Positions 18,354 to 25,307 of a DNA stretch of 33,626 bases are shown here, piece by piece. The stretch is from Meiothermus luteus (GTDB taxonomy: Bacteria; Deinococcota; Deinococci; Deinococcales; Thermaceae): positions 1 through 33,626 of the forward strand of contig NZ_QWKZ01000022.1 of the NCBI RefSeq assembly GCF_003574085.1. The letters run 5' to 3'. A model generated the notes under the pieces. It did no database searches. It saw only the letters and a list, made by a program, of their open reading frames with translations, and was not told the origin of the DNA. Numbering within the stretch: position 1 is the first letter of the stretch; every line of letters begins with the position of its first letter. The position numbers and the translations under genes are program-made.

Positions 18354-18357
<4 letters not shown>

Positions 18358-19355
18358 GCGTTGGTAAAGCGCACCAGCCGCTCCAAAAGCACCAGCCCCG
18401 CTCCCTCGTCCAGCAAACCCTGGGCCAGCCTCACCCCCTCGGCCAGGCTGTCCACCTTGCCGGCCAAGTAAAAGGCCGCCCCGGCGTTGAGGGCCACCGC
18501 ATCCCGCTTAGGGCCCCGCTCCTTTCCCCCTAGGATGGCTCGAGCGGTCTCGGCGTTCTCCTGGGGCGTACCTCCCCGGATGGCCTCGTAAGGGGCGCCA
18601 GCCAGGCCCACCTCCTCAGGGCGCAGGGTATAGGTGCGCACCTCCCCATCGCGAAGCTCGGCCACCTGGTTCACCCCCAGCACCAGCTCGTCCACCCCCT
18701 CCCCATGGACCACCATGGCCCGCTCGGAGCCCAGCCGGCCCAGCACCTGGGCAAAGGTAAGGAGCAAGGAGGGGCTGTGCACCCCCACCAGGTTCAAAGT
18801 GGCAAAGGCAGGGTTGGTCAGCGGCCCCAGGAGGTTGAAGACCGTGCGCACCCCCAGCTCAGCCCGCACCGGCGCCACGTAGCGCATGGCGGGGTGGTGG
18901 TTTCGGGCGAAAAGGAAGCCCAGCCCTAGGGTCTCAATGGACTCGGCCACCCTTTGGGGCGGCAAGTCTATCCTCACCCCTAAGGCCTCGAGCAGATCAA
19001 AGGAGCCCGAACGCGAGGAAGCCGCCCGGTTGCCGTGCTTGGCCACCGGAACCCCTCCCGCCGCCACCACGAAGCAGGTGGTGGTAGAGATGTTAAAAGC
19101 GTCCGGGGCTACCCCTCCGGTGCCCACAATGTCCATAACCGGCCGGCGCTGGGTCTCTACCCGCACCGCTGCCTCGCGCATGCCGGCAGCAAACCCCGCT
19201 ATCTCCTCCGGGGTTTCTCCCCGGGTCCGCAGGGCCATAAGCACCCCGGCGGTCTGCACAGGGGTAAGGTCGCCGGCCATAATCCGCCGCATCAGGGCCT
19301 GCGCCTCAGCCTGGGACAACGGCTCAGCCAGAAGGGCTTTCTTCAGTTCGTCCAC
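18354..19355 (-). CDS. trpD: Anthranilate phosphoribosyltransferase
   Basis: Second committed step of tryptophan synthesis: anthranilate plus PRPP to phosphoribosylanthranilate. The 333-residue length is standard. The PRPP-binding motif is DIVGTGGVAPDAFNIST (75-91), followed by VAKHGNRAASSRSGSFDLLEALG, with NPAFATLNLVGVHSP and GPKRDAVALNAGAAFYLAG towards the C-terminus. The GTG at 19355 has a strong GGAGGTAGC ribosome binding site. It is separated from trpE and trpG by three glycosyltransferase genes on the same strand and coupled by ATGA overlap to the LpxB-related gene. Confidence 0.95.
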
Positions 19356-19389: not shown

Positions 19390-20253
19390 TCAGTCTAAAA
19401 GCGGCAAGGGCAGCCGCCAGCCTCGCTTCAAACCCCTAAAAAGCGCCCCCGCCTTGTCAAATCGGCCACGCAGGCCGTACTCCACCAGCCAGAAGAGGCA
19501 ATAGCCCGCCACAGCCAACAGGGGCCAAGGCGCATGCTTGCGAAAAAGCCGGACGTTGTAGGCGGCGAAGTTTTCATCGGCAGCCAGGCTGCTGCTCCAG
19601 GAGGTGCCCCCCTTGTGCAGCACCCGGGCCCCCGGGGCCACCCCCAGCCGAAAACCGGCCTTCCTAAGCCGCAGACCATAGTCGCAGTCCTCCCCATACA
19701 TGAAGAAGCCCTCGTCCAGAAGCCCCACCCGCTCCAGGGCCTTCCGCCTGATGAGCAGGCTGGCCCCGCTTATGTAGGAAAGGCGGGGCATCTGGGCGGG
19801 GTGGCTGAGGAGGCGGATGAGCCCCCACTTAAGCACCACCTCTCCCCCACCCCAGGCCTGCACCCGCTCAGGGCGATCCATATCGCACACCACCGCACCC
19901 ACCGCCCCAAGGCCTGGGTCGGCCTCGGCCAGCCGCACCATGGCCGACAGGGCCCCCGGGTCAGGCTGGGCATCGGGGTTCAGGAGCCAGACGTAGTCGG
20001 CCCCCTCGGCCAAGGCCTGCCGGATACCCAGGTTGTTGCCCCCCGCAAAGCCCAGGTTGCGCTCTAGCTCGACCAGCCTCACCTCAGGAAAAGCAGCCCG
20101 AATCCGGGCCACCGAGTCGTTGTCCGAGGCGTTGTCCAAGAGCAACAGGCGCCAGCGCGGGTAGTCCAGCCTCTCCAGCGCCCGAAGGCAAGCCAGGGTA
20201 TCCCACCAGGCGCGGTAGTTGAGGACGAGCACGTAGACCAGTGGACAGCTCAT
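19390..20253 (-). CDS. Family 2 glycosyltransferase (rhamnosyltransferase-like)
   Basis: A 287-residue GT-A fold enzyme. The N-terminal VYVLVLNYRAWWDTLACLRALERLDYPRWRLLLLDNASDN, the middle NLGFAGGNNLGIRQALAEGADYVWLLNPDA and FFMYGEDCDYGLRLRKAGFRLGVAPGARVLHKGGTSW match the WbbL/rhamnosyltransferase branch of GT2. The DxD equivalent is NPDAQPD. A hydrophobic patch near residues 243-258 (PLLAVAGYCLFWLVEYG) suggests membrane contact. The ATG overlaps the stop of the upstream glycosyltransferase by 4 nt (ATGA). It probably adds a sugar to an envelope or secreted glycan; donor and acceptor are unknown. Confidence 0.88.
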   Translation of the reverse strand: MSCPLVYVLVLNYRAWWDTLACLRALERLDYPRWRLLLLDNASDNDSVARIRAAFPEVRLVELERNLGFAGGNNLGIRQALAEGADYVWLLNPDAQPDPGALSAMVRLAEADPGLGAVGAVVCDMDRPERVQAWGGGEVVLKWGLIRLLSHPAQMPRLSYISGASLLIRRKALERVGLLDEGFFMYGEDCDYGLRLRKAGFRLGVAPGARVLHKGGTSWSSSLAADENFAAYNVRLFRKHAPWPLLAVAGYCLFWLVEYGLRGRFDKAGALFRGLKRGWRLPLPLLD

Positions 20254-21131
20254 GAACCCTCCAGCAGCCCCCGGGTGTAGGCGGCCTCGAGCAGAAACCG
20301 ATAGCCCCTAAAAGCCCCCGGGCCCTCCTCCCAACGCCGATCTTGCAGGAGCTGCTCCGCCTTGGCCCAAGGATAGGCCAAGCGCTTGTAAAGCCGCGAG
20401 GTAGGATGCACCCCTGTCCAAAGCGCCACCAGAGGATGGGGATGCAGGCGGTAGAACTCCCAGGCCATCCGCCCCATGCTGCGCTGCTTGGCCAGGGCCA
20501 CCTCGAGGCTTGGCCGATCCTCGTGGGCCGCCCGGGCCCCAAGGGCCAACCGGGGCCGAACCCCCTTTCTCCAAAGCCGCCAACCCAACTCATGCTCCTC
20601 CCAACCATAGCCAGCGAAAGGCGCAAACGTCTCCGCTAGAACCCGGGACAAGGACCGGCTCGCGAACCAGAAGCCTCCCCAGCCCAGCACCGCCCCATCG
20701 ACCCTCCCACGAACCCCGGCCTCGGTCTTCGCCCGCCAGAAACAGGCGAAGGCCTCCTGGGCAAAGCCCTCGGGCACATAGGTCCGGCTCACGGCCGCGG
20801 CGTGGGGGTAGCGCCGGTGCAGCCCCAGGTGGGCCTGTAGGAAACCCGGCTCGGGCACCATGTCGTCGTCGTTGAAGAGCACGTAGCGGCCCCGGGCTCG
20901 AGCCAGCCCGGCGTTGCGGGCAGCGGCCAGGCCCCCTCTGGGCTGGCAGACCACCTCGAGCCGGGGGTCGCGCAGGGCACCTAGCCGCTTCGAAGTTCCG
21001 TCCTCCGAGCCGTCGTCCACCACAATCACCTCAAAGTCCACCCCGGTCTGGGCCAGAAAAGCGCCCACGGTGCGGACCACCTGTTCGGCCCGGTTGCGGG
21101 TGGGAATCACGACGCTGAGCTCTGGTTCCAT
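20250..21131 (-). CDS. Family 2 glycosyltransferase
   Basis: A 293-residue GT-A enzyme with ELSVVIPTRNRAEQVVRTVGAFLAQ at the N-terminus, VDDGSEDGT for nucleotide binding, GGLAAARNAGLARARGRYVLFNDDD with the DxD metal motif (about residue 90), and WEEHELGWRLWRKG as the acceptor-side ED-type motif. The start overlaps the upstream glycosyltransferase by 25 nt and the end overlaps the downstream one by 4 nt, so the three form one translational unit. The substrate is unknown. Confidence 0.88.
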   Translation of the reverse strand: MEPELSVVIPTRNRAEQVVRTVGAFLAQTGVDFEVIVVDDGSEDGTSKRLGALRDPRLEVVCQPRGGLAAARNAGLARARGRYVLFNDDDMVPEPGFLQAHLGLHRRYPHAAAVSRTYVPEGFAQEAFACFWRAKTEAGVRGRVDGAVLGWGGFWFASRSLSRVLAETFAPFAGYGWEEHELGWRLWRKGVRPRLALGARAAHEDRPSLEVALAKQRSMGRMAWEFYRLHPHPLVALWTGVHPTSRLYKRLAYPWAKAEQLLQDRRWEEGPGAFRGYRFLLEAAYTRGLLEGS

Positions 21132-21925
21132 GCGTCGGAAGCCCCCCAGGCGTAGGCCAGCTCATAGTCCCCGCGGGCCCCCAGGAGGCCCTTGAAGGAG
21201 GGGAGCAGGGCCAGCTTAATGGCCAGAAGGACCGGATGCACCCCCAAGGCCCAGGCAATGCGGGGATCGCCGTGCTTCCTCCAGACCCGCACGTGGGCTG
21301 CACCCGCCTGCCGGGCCTTCTCCAGGGCCCTTCCGCGGTAGTCAAAGGCCTCGTGCACCGCCACCGCGTCCCCCAAAAAGACCAGCCGAGCCCCGGCCCT
21401 CATCAACCGATAGCCCAGGTCGGGGTCCTCACCGCCATAGCCGCTAAAGGCCGGGTCGTACCCCCCCACCTCCTCAAAAAGGGCTTTGGGCAAGGAAGTG
21501 TTGTTGCCGGTAACATTCCACCAAAAGGCCCGGGGGCCCCTAAGCTCGGCGGCCCCTGTGCCCCTTAGCTCCGGCGGCAGCTCTAGCCGCCCCACCGCCA
21601 CCACCCGGGGCTGGGCATGGGCCTTTTGGTGAGCCTCGATCCAGCCGGGCTGGGGCATCACGTCGTCGTCGGAAAAGAGCAGGATGTCGCCCGTGGCCGC
21701 CTGGGCCCCGCGGTTGCGGGCCCCTGCCGCCCCCAGGCCCGGGGCAAGCTCGAGGAAGCGGAAGGGGAAAGGGGGCCGGTACTGGCTTAAAAACTCCAGC
21801 GTCCCATCGGTGCAGCCGTCGGCCACCACCACCACCTCAAATTCCCCCCGCTGGACCTCCAGAAGGCGCAGCTTCTTCTCCAAAAGCGCGCGGCGGTTGT
21901 GGGTAGGAACGATCACCGAGAGCAT
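21107..21925 (-). CDS. Family 2 glycosyltransferase
   Basis: A 272-residue GT-A enzyme, first of three in tandem. Motifs are SVIVPTHNRRALLEKKLRLLE, VVADGCTDGT, GAAGARNRGAQAATGDILLFSDDDVMP (DxD) and GYGGEDPDLGYRLMRAG. A hydrophobic segment near residues 224-241 could touch the membrane. The ATG at 21925 has a good GAGGAGGGAG ribosome binding site, unlike the coupled genes behind it, and lies 58 nt after trpG; so the cassette can be translated independently, while no separate promoter is evident. Confidence 0.88.
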   Translation of the reverse strand: MLSVIVPTHNRRALLEKKLRLLEVQRGEFEVVVVADGCTDGTLEFLSQYRPPFPFRFLELAPGLGAAGARNRGAQAATGDILLFSDDDVMPQPGWIEAHQKAHAQPRVVAVGRLELPPELRGTGAAELRGPRAFWWNVTGNNTSLPKALFEEVGGYDPAFSGYGGEDPDLGYRLMRAGARLVFLGDAVAVHEAFDYRGRALEKARQAGAAHVRVWRKHGDPRIAWALGVHPVLLAIKLALLPSFKGLLGARGDYELAYAWGASDAWNQSSAS

Positions 21926-21983: not shown

Positions 21984-22562
21984 TCAACCACACAGCGCCA
22001 AGAAGTTGGCCAGCATCTCTTTTCCCCCTTCGGTCAACACCGACTCGGGGTGGAACTGCACCCCGTGGGTGGGGTAGCAGCGGTGGCGCAGCCCCATCAC
22101 CGTGCGGCCCGTTTCCTCCTCTACCCAGGCGTTGACCAAAAGCTCCTCGGGCAGGTCCTCCACCACCAGCGAGTGGTAGCGGGTGGCCGCGAAAGGACTC
22201 CTCAGACCTGAGAAAACCCCGCTGCCGTCATGGGCGATAAGGCTGGTCTTGCCGTGCACGATGCGCTTGTGCCGGACTACCCGGGCCCCAAAGGCCTCCC
22301 CGATGCTCTGGTGGCCCAAACAAACCCCCAGGATGGGGTAGCGAGGGGCATACCGGCGTATCAGCGGCACCGAGAGCCCAGCCTCCTTAGGGGTACAAGG
22401 CCCTGGGGAGACCACGATGCCATCGGGGTTGAACGCCTCCACCTCCTCGAGCCGGAAGCGGTCGTTGCGCCAGACGGTCACGGCCGCCCCCAGCTCGCCC
22501 AGGTACTGCACCAGGTTGTAGGTAAAGGAGTCGTAGTTGTCCACCACCAAGATTCGCTTCAT
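21984..22562 (-). CDS. trpG: Anthranilate synthase component II (glutamine amidotransferase)
   Basis: Provides ammonia from glutamine to TrpE. The 192-residue class I amidotransferase has the N-terminal RILVVDNYDSFTYNLVQYLGELG, the oxyanion region SPGPCTP, the nucleophile elbow GVCLGHQSIGEAFG and the catalytic His-Glu pair in GVQFHPES. The ATG at 22562 overlaps the trpE stop (ATGA), indicating coupled translation and 1:1 production. The open frame upstream of the ATG is a shadow of trpE. A shared role with folate synthesis (PabA) is possible in organisms with a single gene. Confidence 0.95.
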   Translation of the reverse strand: MKRILVVDNYDSFTYNLVQYLGELGAAVTVWRNDRFRLEEVEAFNPDGIVVSPGPCTPKEAGLSVPLIRRYAPRYPILGVCLGHQSIGEAFGARVVRHKRIVHGKTSLIAHDGSGVFSGLRSPFAATRYHSLVVEDLPEELLVNAWVEEETGRTVMGLRHRCYPTHGVQFHPESVLTEGGKEMLANFLALCG

Positions 22563-23956
22563 AGCCCCTCCTCCGCCAGCCGGACTGCCTTCAGCATGGC
22601 CTGGGCCTTGTTCAGGCACTCCAGGTACTCCGCCGTGGGGTTGGAGTCGTAGACCACCCCGGCGCCGGCCTGCACGTGCACCTGCTCCTGGGCCACCACC
22701 ATCGTGCGCAAGGTCAGAGCCATGTCCATATGGCCGTCGTAGGCCAGATAGCCAAAAGCCCCCCCATAGGCACCGCGGCGGGAGGGCTCGAGCTCCTCTA
22801 TGATCTCCATGGCCCGAATCTTGGGAGCCCCCGACACGGTGCCCATGGGCAGAACCGAGGCCAGCGCGTCCAACGGGGTCCGGTCCTCCCGAAGCTCCCC
22901 CTCCACCGTTGAGACAATGTGCATCACGTGCGAGTAGTACTCCACCACCATCAGCTCCTTGGGACGGACGCTGCCGTAGCGGCAAACCCGGCCCAGGTCG
23001 TTGCGGGAGAGGTCTACCAGCATCACGTGTTCGGCTCGCTCCTTCTCGTCGGCAAGAAGCTCCTCGGCCAAGGCCTTGTCCTCAGCGGCGTCCTGCCCCC
23101 GCCGGCGGGTCCCCGCGATGGGCCGGGTCACCACCCTGCGGCCATCGGAGCGCAGCAGGCTCTCGGGGCTGGAGGAGACCAGCGTCACCTCACCCAGGTC
23201 TAAAAAACCCATGTAGGGGCTGGGATTGACCGAGCGAAGGGCCCGGTAAATGGCGAAAGGGTGAACCCCTAAAGGCGCGGAGAAGCGCAGGCTGGGGACC
23301 ACCTGGAAAATATCCCCCGCCCGGATGTAGTCCAAAGCCCGCTCCACCAAGGTCTCGTACTCGGCCTGGGAAAGATTCGGGGTGAACGCCATGCGCCGGC
23401 CGGCCCGTTCCCCCGGCACCCCCGGCAGGGGGCCCCGGAGGCGCTGCTCGGCCCAGGCGATGCGCTCTAAGGCCTCAGCTTTCTGCTCCTCCTGGGCCGG
23501 GGCCACGATGTGAAGCTGCTGCTTGAACTGGTCAAAAACCACCAGCACCTCCGGCTCAATGAAGAGGAGGTCAGGAACACCCAGAACATCCGGCTTCAAG
23601 GCAGGAAGGCGCTCGTAACAGCGAATCAGGTCGTAGGCCGCATACCCCACCGCGCCTCCCCAGAACAAGGGCAGGTCGGGGTCAAAAGCCACAGGCCGAT
23701 GGACGGCTTCGTAGAGGGTGCGGAGGGGGTCGTGGGTAGGGATGGGCCTTCCGTTCAGGGTAAAAACCCCATCCTTGAGCCTCCAGACGTTCTTCGCTCC
23801 TACCCCCACGAAGCTCCAACGGGCCCAGGCCTTGCCCCCCTCCACCGACTCCAACAGGAAACTCGGGGTGGTCTTTTCGGAAAGCTTCAGGTAGGCCGTA
23901 ACCGGGGTCTCGAGGTCGGCCAGCAGGGTCTTCTTGATCGGAAAGGTTCGCTTCAT
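22559..23956 (-). CDS. trpE: Anthranilate synthase component I
   Basis: Converts chorismate and ammonia to anthranilate, first step of tryptophan synthesis. The 465-residue protein carries the N-terminal LLES feedback-binding motif (FLLESVEGGKAWARWSFVG) and the chorismate-binding core: RPIAGTRRRGQDAAEDKALAEELLADEKERAEHVMLVDLSRNDLGR and PMGTVSGAPKIRAMEIIEELEP. The ATG at 23956 is chosen because GAGGAGCGGG precedes it and it starts downstream of the attenuator terminator; the open frame further upstream reads through that hairpin. It is regulated by the trp leader directly upstream, and its stop overlaps trpG. Confidence 0.96.
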   Translation of the reverse strand: MKRTFPIKKTLLADLETPVTAYLKLSEKTTPSFLLESVEGGKAWARWSFVGVGAKNVWRLKDGVFTLNGRPIPTHDPLRTLYEAVHRPVAFDPDLPLFWGGAVGYAAYDLIRCYERLPALKPDVLGVPDLLFIEPEVLVVFDQFKQQLHIVAPAQEEQKAEALERIAWAEQRLRGPLPGVPGERAGRRMAFTPNLSQAEYETLVERALDYIRAGDIFQVVPSLRFSAPLGVHPFAIYRALRSVNPSPYMGFLDLGEVTLVSSSPESLLRSDGRRVVTRPIAGTRRRGQDAAEDKALAEELLADEKERAEHVMLVDLSRNDLGRVCRYGSVRPKELMVVEYYSHVMHIVSTVEGELREDRTPLDALASVLPMGTVSGAPKIRAMEIIEELEPSRRGAYGGAFGYLAYDGHMDMALTLRTMVVAQEQVHVQAGAGVVYDSNPTAEYLECLNKAQAMLKAVRLAEEGL

Positions 23957-23972
23957 CCCGCTCCTCAAAATG

Positions 23973-23999
23973 AAAAACCCCTGGAGAGGCCCCAGGGGT
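23973..23999 (-). terminator. trp attenuator terminator hairpin
   Basis: On the minus strand ACCCCTGG and CCAGGGGT form a perfect 8-bp stem around a short loop, followed by TTTTCATTTT. It stands between the leader peptide stop and the trpE ribosome binding site, the place of a transcription attenuator. Confidence 0.88.
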
Positions 24000-24021
24000 A
24001 CAAAGCGGCACCGCCCGGGGA

Positions 24022-24063
24022 CTACCCAGGCCACCACCAACCCAAAGCGGCGCGCAGTCGCAT
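24022..24063 (-). CDS. trpL: trp leader peptide (MRLRAALGWWWPG)
   Basis: A 13-residue frame with three consecutive TGG codons at positions 9-11, ended by TAG. Its ATG is preceded by TAAGGAACCG, a good ribosome binding site. In 13 codons three adjacent Trp residues are very unlikely by chance, and the frame sits 66 nt ahead of trpE with a U-tailed terminator between them. It acts by its translation, not by its product. Confidence 0.9.
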   Translation of the reverse strand: MRLRAALGWWWPG

Positions 24064-24120
24064 CGGTTCCTTAGTTTGCCTCAAACCGACCCAGAATGCA
24101 ACGCGCATCTTCTGGCGGGG

Positions 24121-24126
24121 TAGACT
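24121..24126 (+). promoter_or_regulatory. -10 box (TAGACT) of the MFS transporter gene
   Basis: TAGACT ends 8 nt before the GTG at 24135, with no Shine-Dalgarno. This supports the internal GTG as start rather than the ATG at 24096. The promoter is divergent from the trp leader. Confidence 0.45.
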
Positions 24127-24134
24127 ATTCCCCA

Positions 24135-25307
24135 GTGAGGCCGCTTTCGCTGCTCTTTCTTACCCTCTTCAACAGCATCCTAGGGCTGTCCATCCTGTTC
24201 CCCATCCTGGGCCCCCTGGCCCGCGAGCTGGGGCTCAGTGAGCTGCAGGTAGGACTTTTCTCCACCGGCTATGCCCTCATGCAGTTTCTCCTCTCCCCCT
24301 ACTGGGGGCGAAAGAGCGAGACCGCAGGGCGCAAGCCCATACTCCTGGTAGGCATCCTAGGCTTTTCGGTCAGCTTCTTCCTGTTTGCCCTGTTTGCCTG
24401 GCTCGGCTATCAAAAAGCCCTTTCGGAACCAACCCTCTTCACCCTCCTGCTCCTCTCCCGGCTTCTTGGGGGGGCTTTTTCCTCCGCCACCTTGCCCACC
24501 GCACAGGCCTACCTGGCCGACATCACCCCCCGGGAGAACCGGGCCCAGAACTTTGCCGTCCTCGGGGCAGCCTTCGGCCTGGGGATTATCTTCGGTCCAG
24601 CCATTGGGGCCGGGCTGGCGCAGTTCGGCCTCCTCACCCCGGTGGTCTTCTCAGCGGGGTTGGCCCTGCTCAACGCCGCGTTTGTGGGGTGGGTCCTGCC
24701 TGAATCGCGCCGGTCGGAAGCCCACCTCGAGGCCACGCCAGGCCTATCCTGGCGCGACCCTCGGGTCCTTCCCCTCCTAGCCGCAGGCCTCAGCATAAAC
24801 CTGGCCTCGGTGGCCATGGAGCAAACGGTGGCCTTCCTCTTCCAAGACCGGCTGGGGCTCAGCCCAGCCCAGACCGCCCAGGCGGTGGGTCTAGCCCTGG
24901 TGGTGTTCGGGGTGGTGGGGGTGCTCGTCCAGGGGGTCTGGGTGCGCATGGTTCGGTGGTCCCCTCGAGCCCTGATCCTGCTGGGGCTGCCCCTTTCGTT
25001 GCTGGGCTACTTGGGCCTGGTCTTCGCTCACAACTTCGCTGGTCTCACCGCTGCGCTGGTGCTGCTGGGCCTGGGCACCATGGCCAGCCCCGGGCTAAGC
25101 GCGGCCCAGTCACTAGCTGTTTCCGACCGGGAGCAAGGGGCCATAGCCGGCCTCTCCAGCGCAGCCCAGGCCCTGGGCAGGATGCTGGGCCCCACCCTGG
25201 GCACCGGTCTTTATGGGCTCTCCCCTGCCTACCCCTATGTCTTTTCAGCCCTCCTAATCTCCTTGGCAATGCTCTTCTTTCTGAGCCAGCCTAGGCTGGC
25301 CCGCTAA
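24135..25307 (+). CDS. MFS transporter, TetA/DHA1-like
   Basis: About 390 residues with twelve hydrophobic helices, an inner-membrane proton-coupled antiporter. The first helix is SLLFLTLFNSILGLSILFPILGPLA; the MFS motif A loop follows helix 2 (SPYWGRKSETAGRKP), and GGAFSSATLPTAQAYLADITPRENRAQNF is typical of tetracycline-type efflux pumps. The substrate cannot be predicted. The GTG at 24135 is favoured by promoter spacing; an ATG at 24096 would add 13 residues without a ribosome binding site. Its end overlaps the convergent TPR gene by 17 nt. Confidence 0.87.
   Translation: MRPLSLLFLTLFNSILGLSILFPILGPLARELGLSELQVGLFSTGYALMQFLLSPYWGRKSETAGRKPILLVGILGFSVSFFLFALFAWLGYQKALSEPTLFTLLLLSRLLGGAFSSATLPTAQAYLADITPRENRAQNFAVLGAAFGLGIIFGPAIGAGLAQFGLLTPVVFSAGLALLNAAFVGWVLPESRRSEAHLEATPGLSWRDPRVLPLLAAGLSINLASVAMEQTVAFLFQDRLGLSPAQTAQAVGLALVVFGVVGVLVQGVWVRMVRWSPRALILLGLPLSLLGYLGLVFAHNFAGLTAALVLLGLGTMASPGLSAAQSLAVSDREQGAIAGLSSAAQALGRMLGPTLGTGLYGLSPAYPYVFSALLISLAMLFFLSQPRLAR

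Follow-up and report, generated by a model that had tools for sequence, protein, structure and literature searches.

The trp operon and its leader

The window, a 33.6-kb stretch of the Meiothermus luteus genome, carries the anthranilate synthase genes on its minus strand, together with trpD and the genes lying between them:

22559..23956, minus strand: trpE, anthranilate synthase component I (PF04715 and PF00425)
21984..22565, minus strand: trpG, anthranilate synthase component II (PF00117, TIGR00566)
19390-21925, minus strand: three glycosyltransferase-like open reading frames (ORFs) between trpG and trpD
18354..19355, minus strand: trpD, beyond the three glycosyltransferase-like ORFs 3' of trpG (TIGR01245)

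The gaps throughout this series are short or overlapping, and the gene arrangement suggests that trpD and the glycosyltransferase-like ORFs probably belong to the same operon as trpE-trpG. A glycosyltransferase gene also follows trpG in many Meiothermus and in Calidithermus; the order in Thermus is trpE-trpG-trpD. A search for viral relatives of TrpE found none.

Upstream of trpE, a short leader ORF (trpL) was found together with a predicted promoter, a terminator and segments able to pair in alternative ways:

24096..24101, minus strand: predicted -35 element TTGCAT (TTGCAT-N17-CA[AG]ACT recurs before most Meiothermus leaders)
24073..24078, minus strand: predicted -10 element CAAACT, 9 nt before the leader ATG (from counts of YANNNT hexamers)
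24022..24063, minus strand: trpL leader ORF MRLRAALGWWWPG, predicted to be leaderless or nearly so (WW(W)PG-type leaders precede trpE in relatives)
24031..24039, minus strand: three consecutive Trp (UGG) codons, read from the sequence
24025..24031, minus strand: region 1 (GCCUGGG), overlapping the last Trp, Pro and Gly codons
24013..24020, minus strand: region 2 (CCCCGGGC), pairing with region 1 or region 3
24008..24012, minus strand: region 2 extension (GGUGC), antiterminator partner of GUACC at 24001-23997 (folding)
23990..23999, minus strand: region 3, the terminator 5' arm (ACCCCUGGGG) (terminator search, folding)
23977..23986, minus strand: region 4, the terminator 3' arm (CUCCAGGGGU) (terminator search)
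23967..23977, minus strand: terminator T tract TTTTTCATTTT, the first T also closing the stem

Along the minus strand the order is thus TTGCAT-N17-CAAACT-N9-ATGCGACTGCGCGCCGCTTTGGGTTGGTGGTGGCCTGGGTAG, then TCCCCGGGCGGTGCCGCTTTGT-ACCCCTGGGGCCTCTCCAGGGGTTTTTCATTTT and the trpE ATG at 23956. The leader frame with three adjacent Trp codons, which the initial annotation had pointed out, is present as a 13-codon ORF at 24063-24022, in which the Trp codons are numbers 9-11 and the stop codon lies 65 nt upstream of trpE. Hence, tandem codons for the end product of the pathway stand in a short ORF upstream of a gene of that pathway. Within the window, both strands of which were checked, a short WWW ORF with a terminator behind it occurs only here.

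Alternative helices and their stability at high temperature

The terminator (23999..23977, minus strand) was also detected by an independent terminator search. The initial annotation had described a perfect 8-bp stem with a T tract; the terminator and its T tract stand, while the stem was found to have 10 pairs (7 of them G-C) around the loop CCT, followed by TTTTTCATTTT. Region 2 begins one base past the leader stop codon, and folding returned both of the 7-bp pairings proposed for it at the outset, one with region 1 (24031-24025 with 24019-24013) and one with region 3 in the terminator arm (24020-24014 with 23996-23990). The latter is extended by a previously unreported second block of 5 bp, GGUGC/GUACC (24012-24008 with 24001-23997), giving an antiterminator of about 12 bp in total.

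The initial annotation had also remarked that such short stems would have to work at the growth temperature of a thermophile, and this holds modestly, as the computed energies of the 1:2, 2:3 and 3:4 stems were -9.0, -13.1 and -11.0 kcal/mol at 60°C and -6.9, -9.6 and -8.4 kcal/mol at 70°C. We further computed equilibrium folds of the complete window leader at 65°C with different ribosome positions masked. Without a ribosome, the RNA adopted the 1:2 helix together with the terminator; with a ribosome on the last Trp codon it adopted the antiterminator, and with a ribosome at the stop codon the terminator. The 2:3 helix and the terminator are therefore mutually exclusive in the folds, and region 1 overlaps the leader ORF in such a way that a stalled ribosome frees region 2.

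Conservation and co-variation in relatives

The search for TrpE covered 111 genomes of the phylum, and the sequence upstream of about 100 trpE genes was read. The attenuator was found before trpE in Meiothermus, Calidithermus, Thermus, other genera of the family and three further families of the order. For analysis we assembled leaders from 65 genomes of four families (f1, f4, f2 and f3), with endings in WW or WWW, mostly WW(W)PG, and a terminator followed the Trp-codon leader in all 65. The start codons of these leaders were picked by hand among in-frame candidates, one genome (G006, L020) allowing two starts, and in three f4 loci, where a T run also follows the 2:3 hairpin, the terminator was chosen with a minimum distance from the stop codon. 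One leader with the ending WWPKG (G053, L142) was excluded from the set, no leader was found at one trpE locus of these families (G051, L143), and the TrpE search gave no trpE match in one Meiothermus genome (G013).

Co-variation was assessed with a swap test, in which each region of 18 divergent representatives was paired with its own partners or with those of other genomes in 20000 permutations. Own partners outperformed swapped ones for all three helices, the observed sum being reached in 2, 0 and 0 permutations for 1:2, 2:3 and 3:4, respectively; these counts are not exact probabilities, since the groups compared are related and relatedness was only partly controlled. In G006 (L020), CTCCAGG faces CCTGGAG at a place occupied in most relatives by CCC-N-GGG types, a clear case of compensation. 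Taken over the leaders, the complementary segments form a triple of the type CCnGG-CCCnGGG-CCCCnGGG. The comparison of relatives that the initial annotation had recommended thus returned both conserved Trp-codon leaders and co-varying hairpins.

The masked folds were extended to these relatives at 65°C. With a ribosome stalled on the last Trp codon and region 4 not yet made, the antiterminator formed in 65/65 leaders, and with a ribosome at the stop codon the terminator formed in 65/65 complete leaders. In equilibrium folds of complete leaders with a stalled ribosome, the antiterminator was kept in just 18/65, so that co-transcriptional kinetics must account for the switch in most relatives. 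When neither a ribosome nor region 4 was present yet, the 1:2 fold was seen in just 7/65 leaders, and the window leader favoured 2:3.

Start of the transcript and of leader translation

Of the 62 distinct leaders, 60 have a YANNNT hexamer whose end lies 6-9 nt ahead of the start codon (4.3 expected), and in 46 the hexamer in this -10 position is of the TANNNT form (1.8 expected). Shine-Dalgarno matches are at most 4 nt long in 59/62 leaders, as against matches of 5-7 nt at 48/65 trpE starts. Given the position of the hexamer and the weak Shine-Dalgarno matches, trpL is predicted from these patterns to be leaderless or nearly leaderless. In Deinococcus-Thermus about 40% of genes are leaderless, and a TANNNT box precedes their start by about 10 nt (PMC3160421); the leaders as a group show the corresponding signature of a TANNNT-like -10 element about 10 nt upstream and no Shine-Dalgarno sequence. 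The window hexamer, CAAACT, is not TANNNT; given how weakly it matches and its distance of 9 nt to the ATG, a 5' UTR of 1-3 nt is possible.

The initial annotation had credited the leader frame with a good ribosome binding site, and one may ask whether the same attenuator is instead read from a Shine-Dalgarno-led leader on a transcript that starts further upstream. The sequence AAGGA (24072-24068, minus strand) does lie 4 nt before the leader ATG, and AAGG-like bases are kept there in several Meiothermus leaders. However, AAGGA as such is not conserved in relatives, and as it is placed between CAAACT (24078-24073) and the ATG, most or all of it should fall upstream of the RNA 5' end and so probably outside the RNA. 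Together with the recurrent hexamer and the short Shine-Dalgarno matches described above, this makes a Shine-Dalgarno-led leader unlikely, and the ribosome binding site of the initial annotation was not upheld.

On the opposite strand, the listed ATG of a divergent MFS gene (24096-25307, plus strand) overlaps the predicted trpL -35 element. A likelier start for this gene, and possibly a leaderless one, is the in-frame GTG at 24135, which follows TAGACT (24121-24126) at a distance of 8 nt.

A probable ribosome-mediated attenuator

The trp leader is very likely a classical ribosome-mediated attenuator, as had been proposed at the outset; this reading is supported by the conservation of the leader, the co-variation of its three helices, the masked folds at 65°C and the lack of matches to TRAP or TrpR in the genome and to a T-box at trpE (see below). 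As a whole, we consider a ribosome-mediated trp attenuator whose RNA starts at or near the trpL start codon to be the best explanation, with a probability of roughly 0.93. The parts, their conservation, the co-variation of partners and the fold at each ribosome position come directly from the computations, and from these we infer where transcription begins, its coupling to leader translation and its regulation by Trp.

The 5' end of the transcript would coincide with the trpL start codon or lie no more than about 3 nt from it, and the ribosome would initiate there without a Shine-Dalgarno sequence. With ample Trp-tRNA the ribosome would reach the stop codon and cover region 2, so that 3:4 forms and transcription terminates about 20 nt before trpE. 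With scarce Trp-tRNA a ribosome stalled at UGG codons 9-11 would cover region 1, allowing the 2:3 antiterminator of about 12 bp to form and transcription to continue into trpE-trpG and probably also into the glycosyltransferase genes and trpD. If the leader is not translated, 1:2 would form and leave 3:4 free to terminate.

Other explanations

An additional role in trans might be played by the leader RNA after termination or by the leader peptide, as with rnTrpL and peTrpL in Sinorhizobium, and a predicted leaderless small mRNA does resemble rnTrpL (PMC7298713). Against this, family members do not share a conserved peptide N-terminus. The PG that is conserved overlaps region 1; f2 and f3 have lost it and show endings of the QPK, QLG, FR or PS type instead, with region 1 still complementary to region 2, so that the PG ending owes more to RNA pairing than to the peptide. 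This suggests an RNA constraint, and we regard a function in trans as improbable.

Sensing by another trp regulator finds very little room. Profiles of TRAP (PF02081) and TrpR gave no match in the 99% complete M. luteus genome, although both recovered their control genomes (Bacillus subtilis for TRAP), and the T-box covariance model gave no match at trpE. Moreover, no Rfam family reached its gathering threshold anywhere in the window, and the trp leader gave only sub-threshold matches to unrelated families. A case for a T-box could be drawn from matches elsewhere in the genome; three lie on other contigs (L195, L196 and L197), one of them above the family cut-off. The sub-threshold matches at the leader, to anti-hemB and Vax2os1, were taken as chance.

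Under another reading, the terminator would simply stand between promoter and trpE, with no regulation and with a Trp-rich ORF present by coincidence. A terminator could by itself reduce trpE expression, but this reading is hardly credible, as the Trp codons, regions 1-3 and the terminator recur jointly and co-vary in four families, and shuffling did not reproduce the ORF-terminator combination. A chance Trp-rich ORF was likewise rejected, none of 5000 shuffles of the upstream region giving an ORF with Trp codons and a terminator and whole-window shuffles giving a mean of 0.0 WWW ORFs with a terminator per shuffle.

Comparison with known trp leaders

Like the trpL-trpE attenuator of Enterobacteriaceae, the M. 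luteus leader combines a short ORF containing tandem UGG codons with regions 1-4, of which the pairings 2:3 and 3:4 exclude each other, and with an intrinsic terminator before trpE. Unlike the enterobacterial system, the predicted Meiothermus transcript lacks a Shine-Dalgarno sequence, the leader is only about 95 nt long from the ATG to the end of the T tract, and neither TrpR nor an Rfam match at the gathering threshold was found. A leaderless trpL is known from Sinorhizobium meliloti, where the 5' end of rnTrpL is the trpL ATG, a 14-aa peptide is encoded and trpE(G) is attenuated (PMC7298713), although that species belongs to another phylum and the likeness is one of architecture. Double or triple UGG codons, GC-rich alternative hairpins and a conserved complementary triple also characterize the trp attenuators predicted in Corynebacterium and Streptomyces, where the triple is gGCC-rGCy-GGCC (PMC1262725), compared to CCnGG-CCCnGGG-CCCCnGGG in Meiothermus and its relatives.

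Within the open-access text to which our search was limited, no paper describing a Thermus trp attenuator was found; the mechanism is classical and well supported, and we found no description of it for this phylum in that literature. Thermus thermophilus HB8, of a related genus, has the same trpE-trpG pair. An attenuator-like leader of this pair may reportedly have been described by Sato and colleagues in 1988; if so, an attenuator in this family has already been proposed. According to the present analysis, classical trp attenuation extends to most families of the order, its helices co-varying and its short, GC-rich stems folding at 65°C, and the ribosome that senses Trp is predicted to load at the 5' end of the RNA with no Shine-Dalgarno sequence. 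If true, this would offer a compact attenuator of about 95 nt for studying how transcription is coupled to leaderless translation at high temperature, and a sister family (f5), which apparently uses another kind of trp leader, would provide a clean evolutionary contrast.

A different trpE leader in the sister family

At the f5 loci that were read, a Trp-run leader with a terminator was not found upstream of trpE. Instead, 10 f5 genomes (loci L150, L153, L158, L159, L162, L166, L167, L169, L185 and L189) carry, after a TANNNT box and before trpE, a leader with (S/R)WTG[A/V]LGRW(R/L). The DNA pattern of this leader matched once in each of 11 genomes of the phylum; 10 belong to f5, with the match ahead of trpE, and the eleventh is a Thermus (G036, L170), the sole exact match outside f5. 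Within the WTG-GRW core, pairwise differences at codon positions 1, 2 and 3 were 0.044, 0.069 and 0.436, and the Arg codon is invariably CGA. UCYUGGAC in the leader paired better with the trpE Shine-Dalgarno region of its own genome than with those of others (51/20000 permutations, with trpE starts assigned by hand). We treat this f5 leader as a lead rather than a result.

Tentatively, and at somewhat less than even odds, we suggest that in this Deinococcus-Thermus order the trp leader is a leaderless mRNA that opens with the leader start codon, so that the ribosome sensing Trp is loaded at the very 5' end, and that f5 has replaced this attenuator with a leaderless SWTG[A/V]LGRWR leader, its peptide under selection and its RNA pairing with the trpE ribosome binding site, which would suggest a translational attenuator sensing Trp partly via the nascent chain. 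In five further f5 loci (L151, L155, L157, L163 and L164), GCGATGGC is kept upstream of trpE even without the WTG part.
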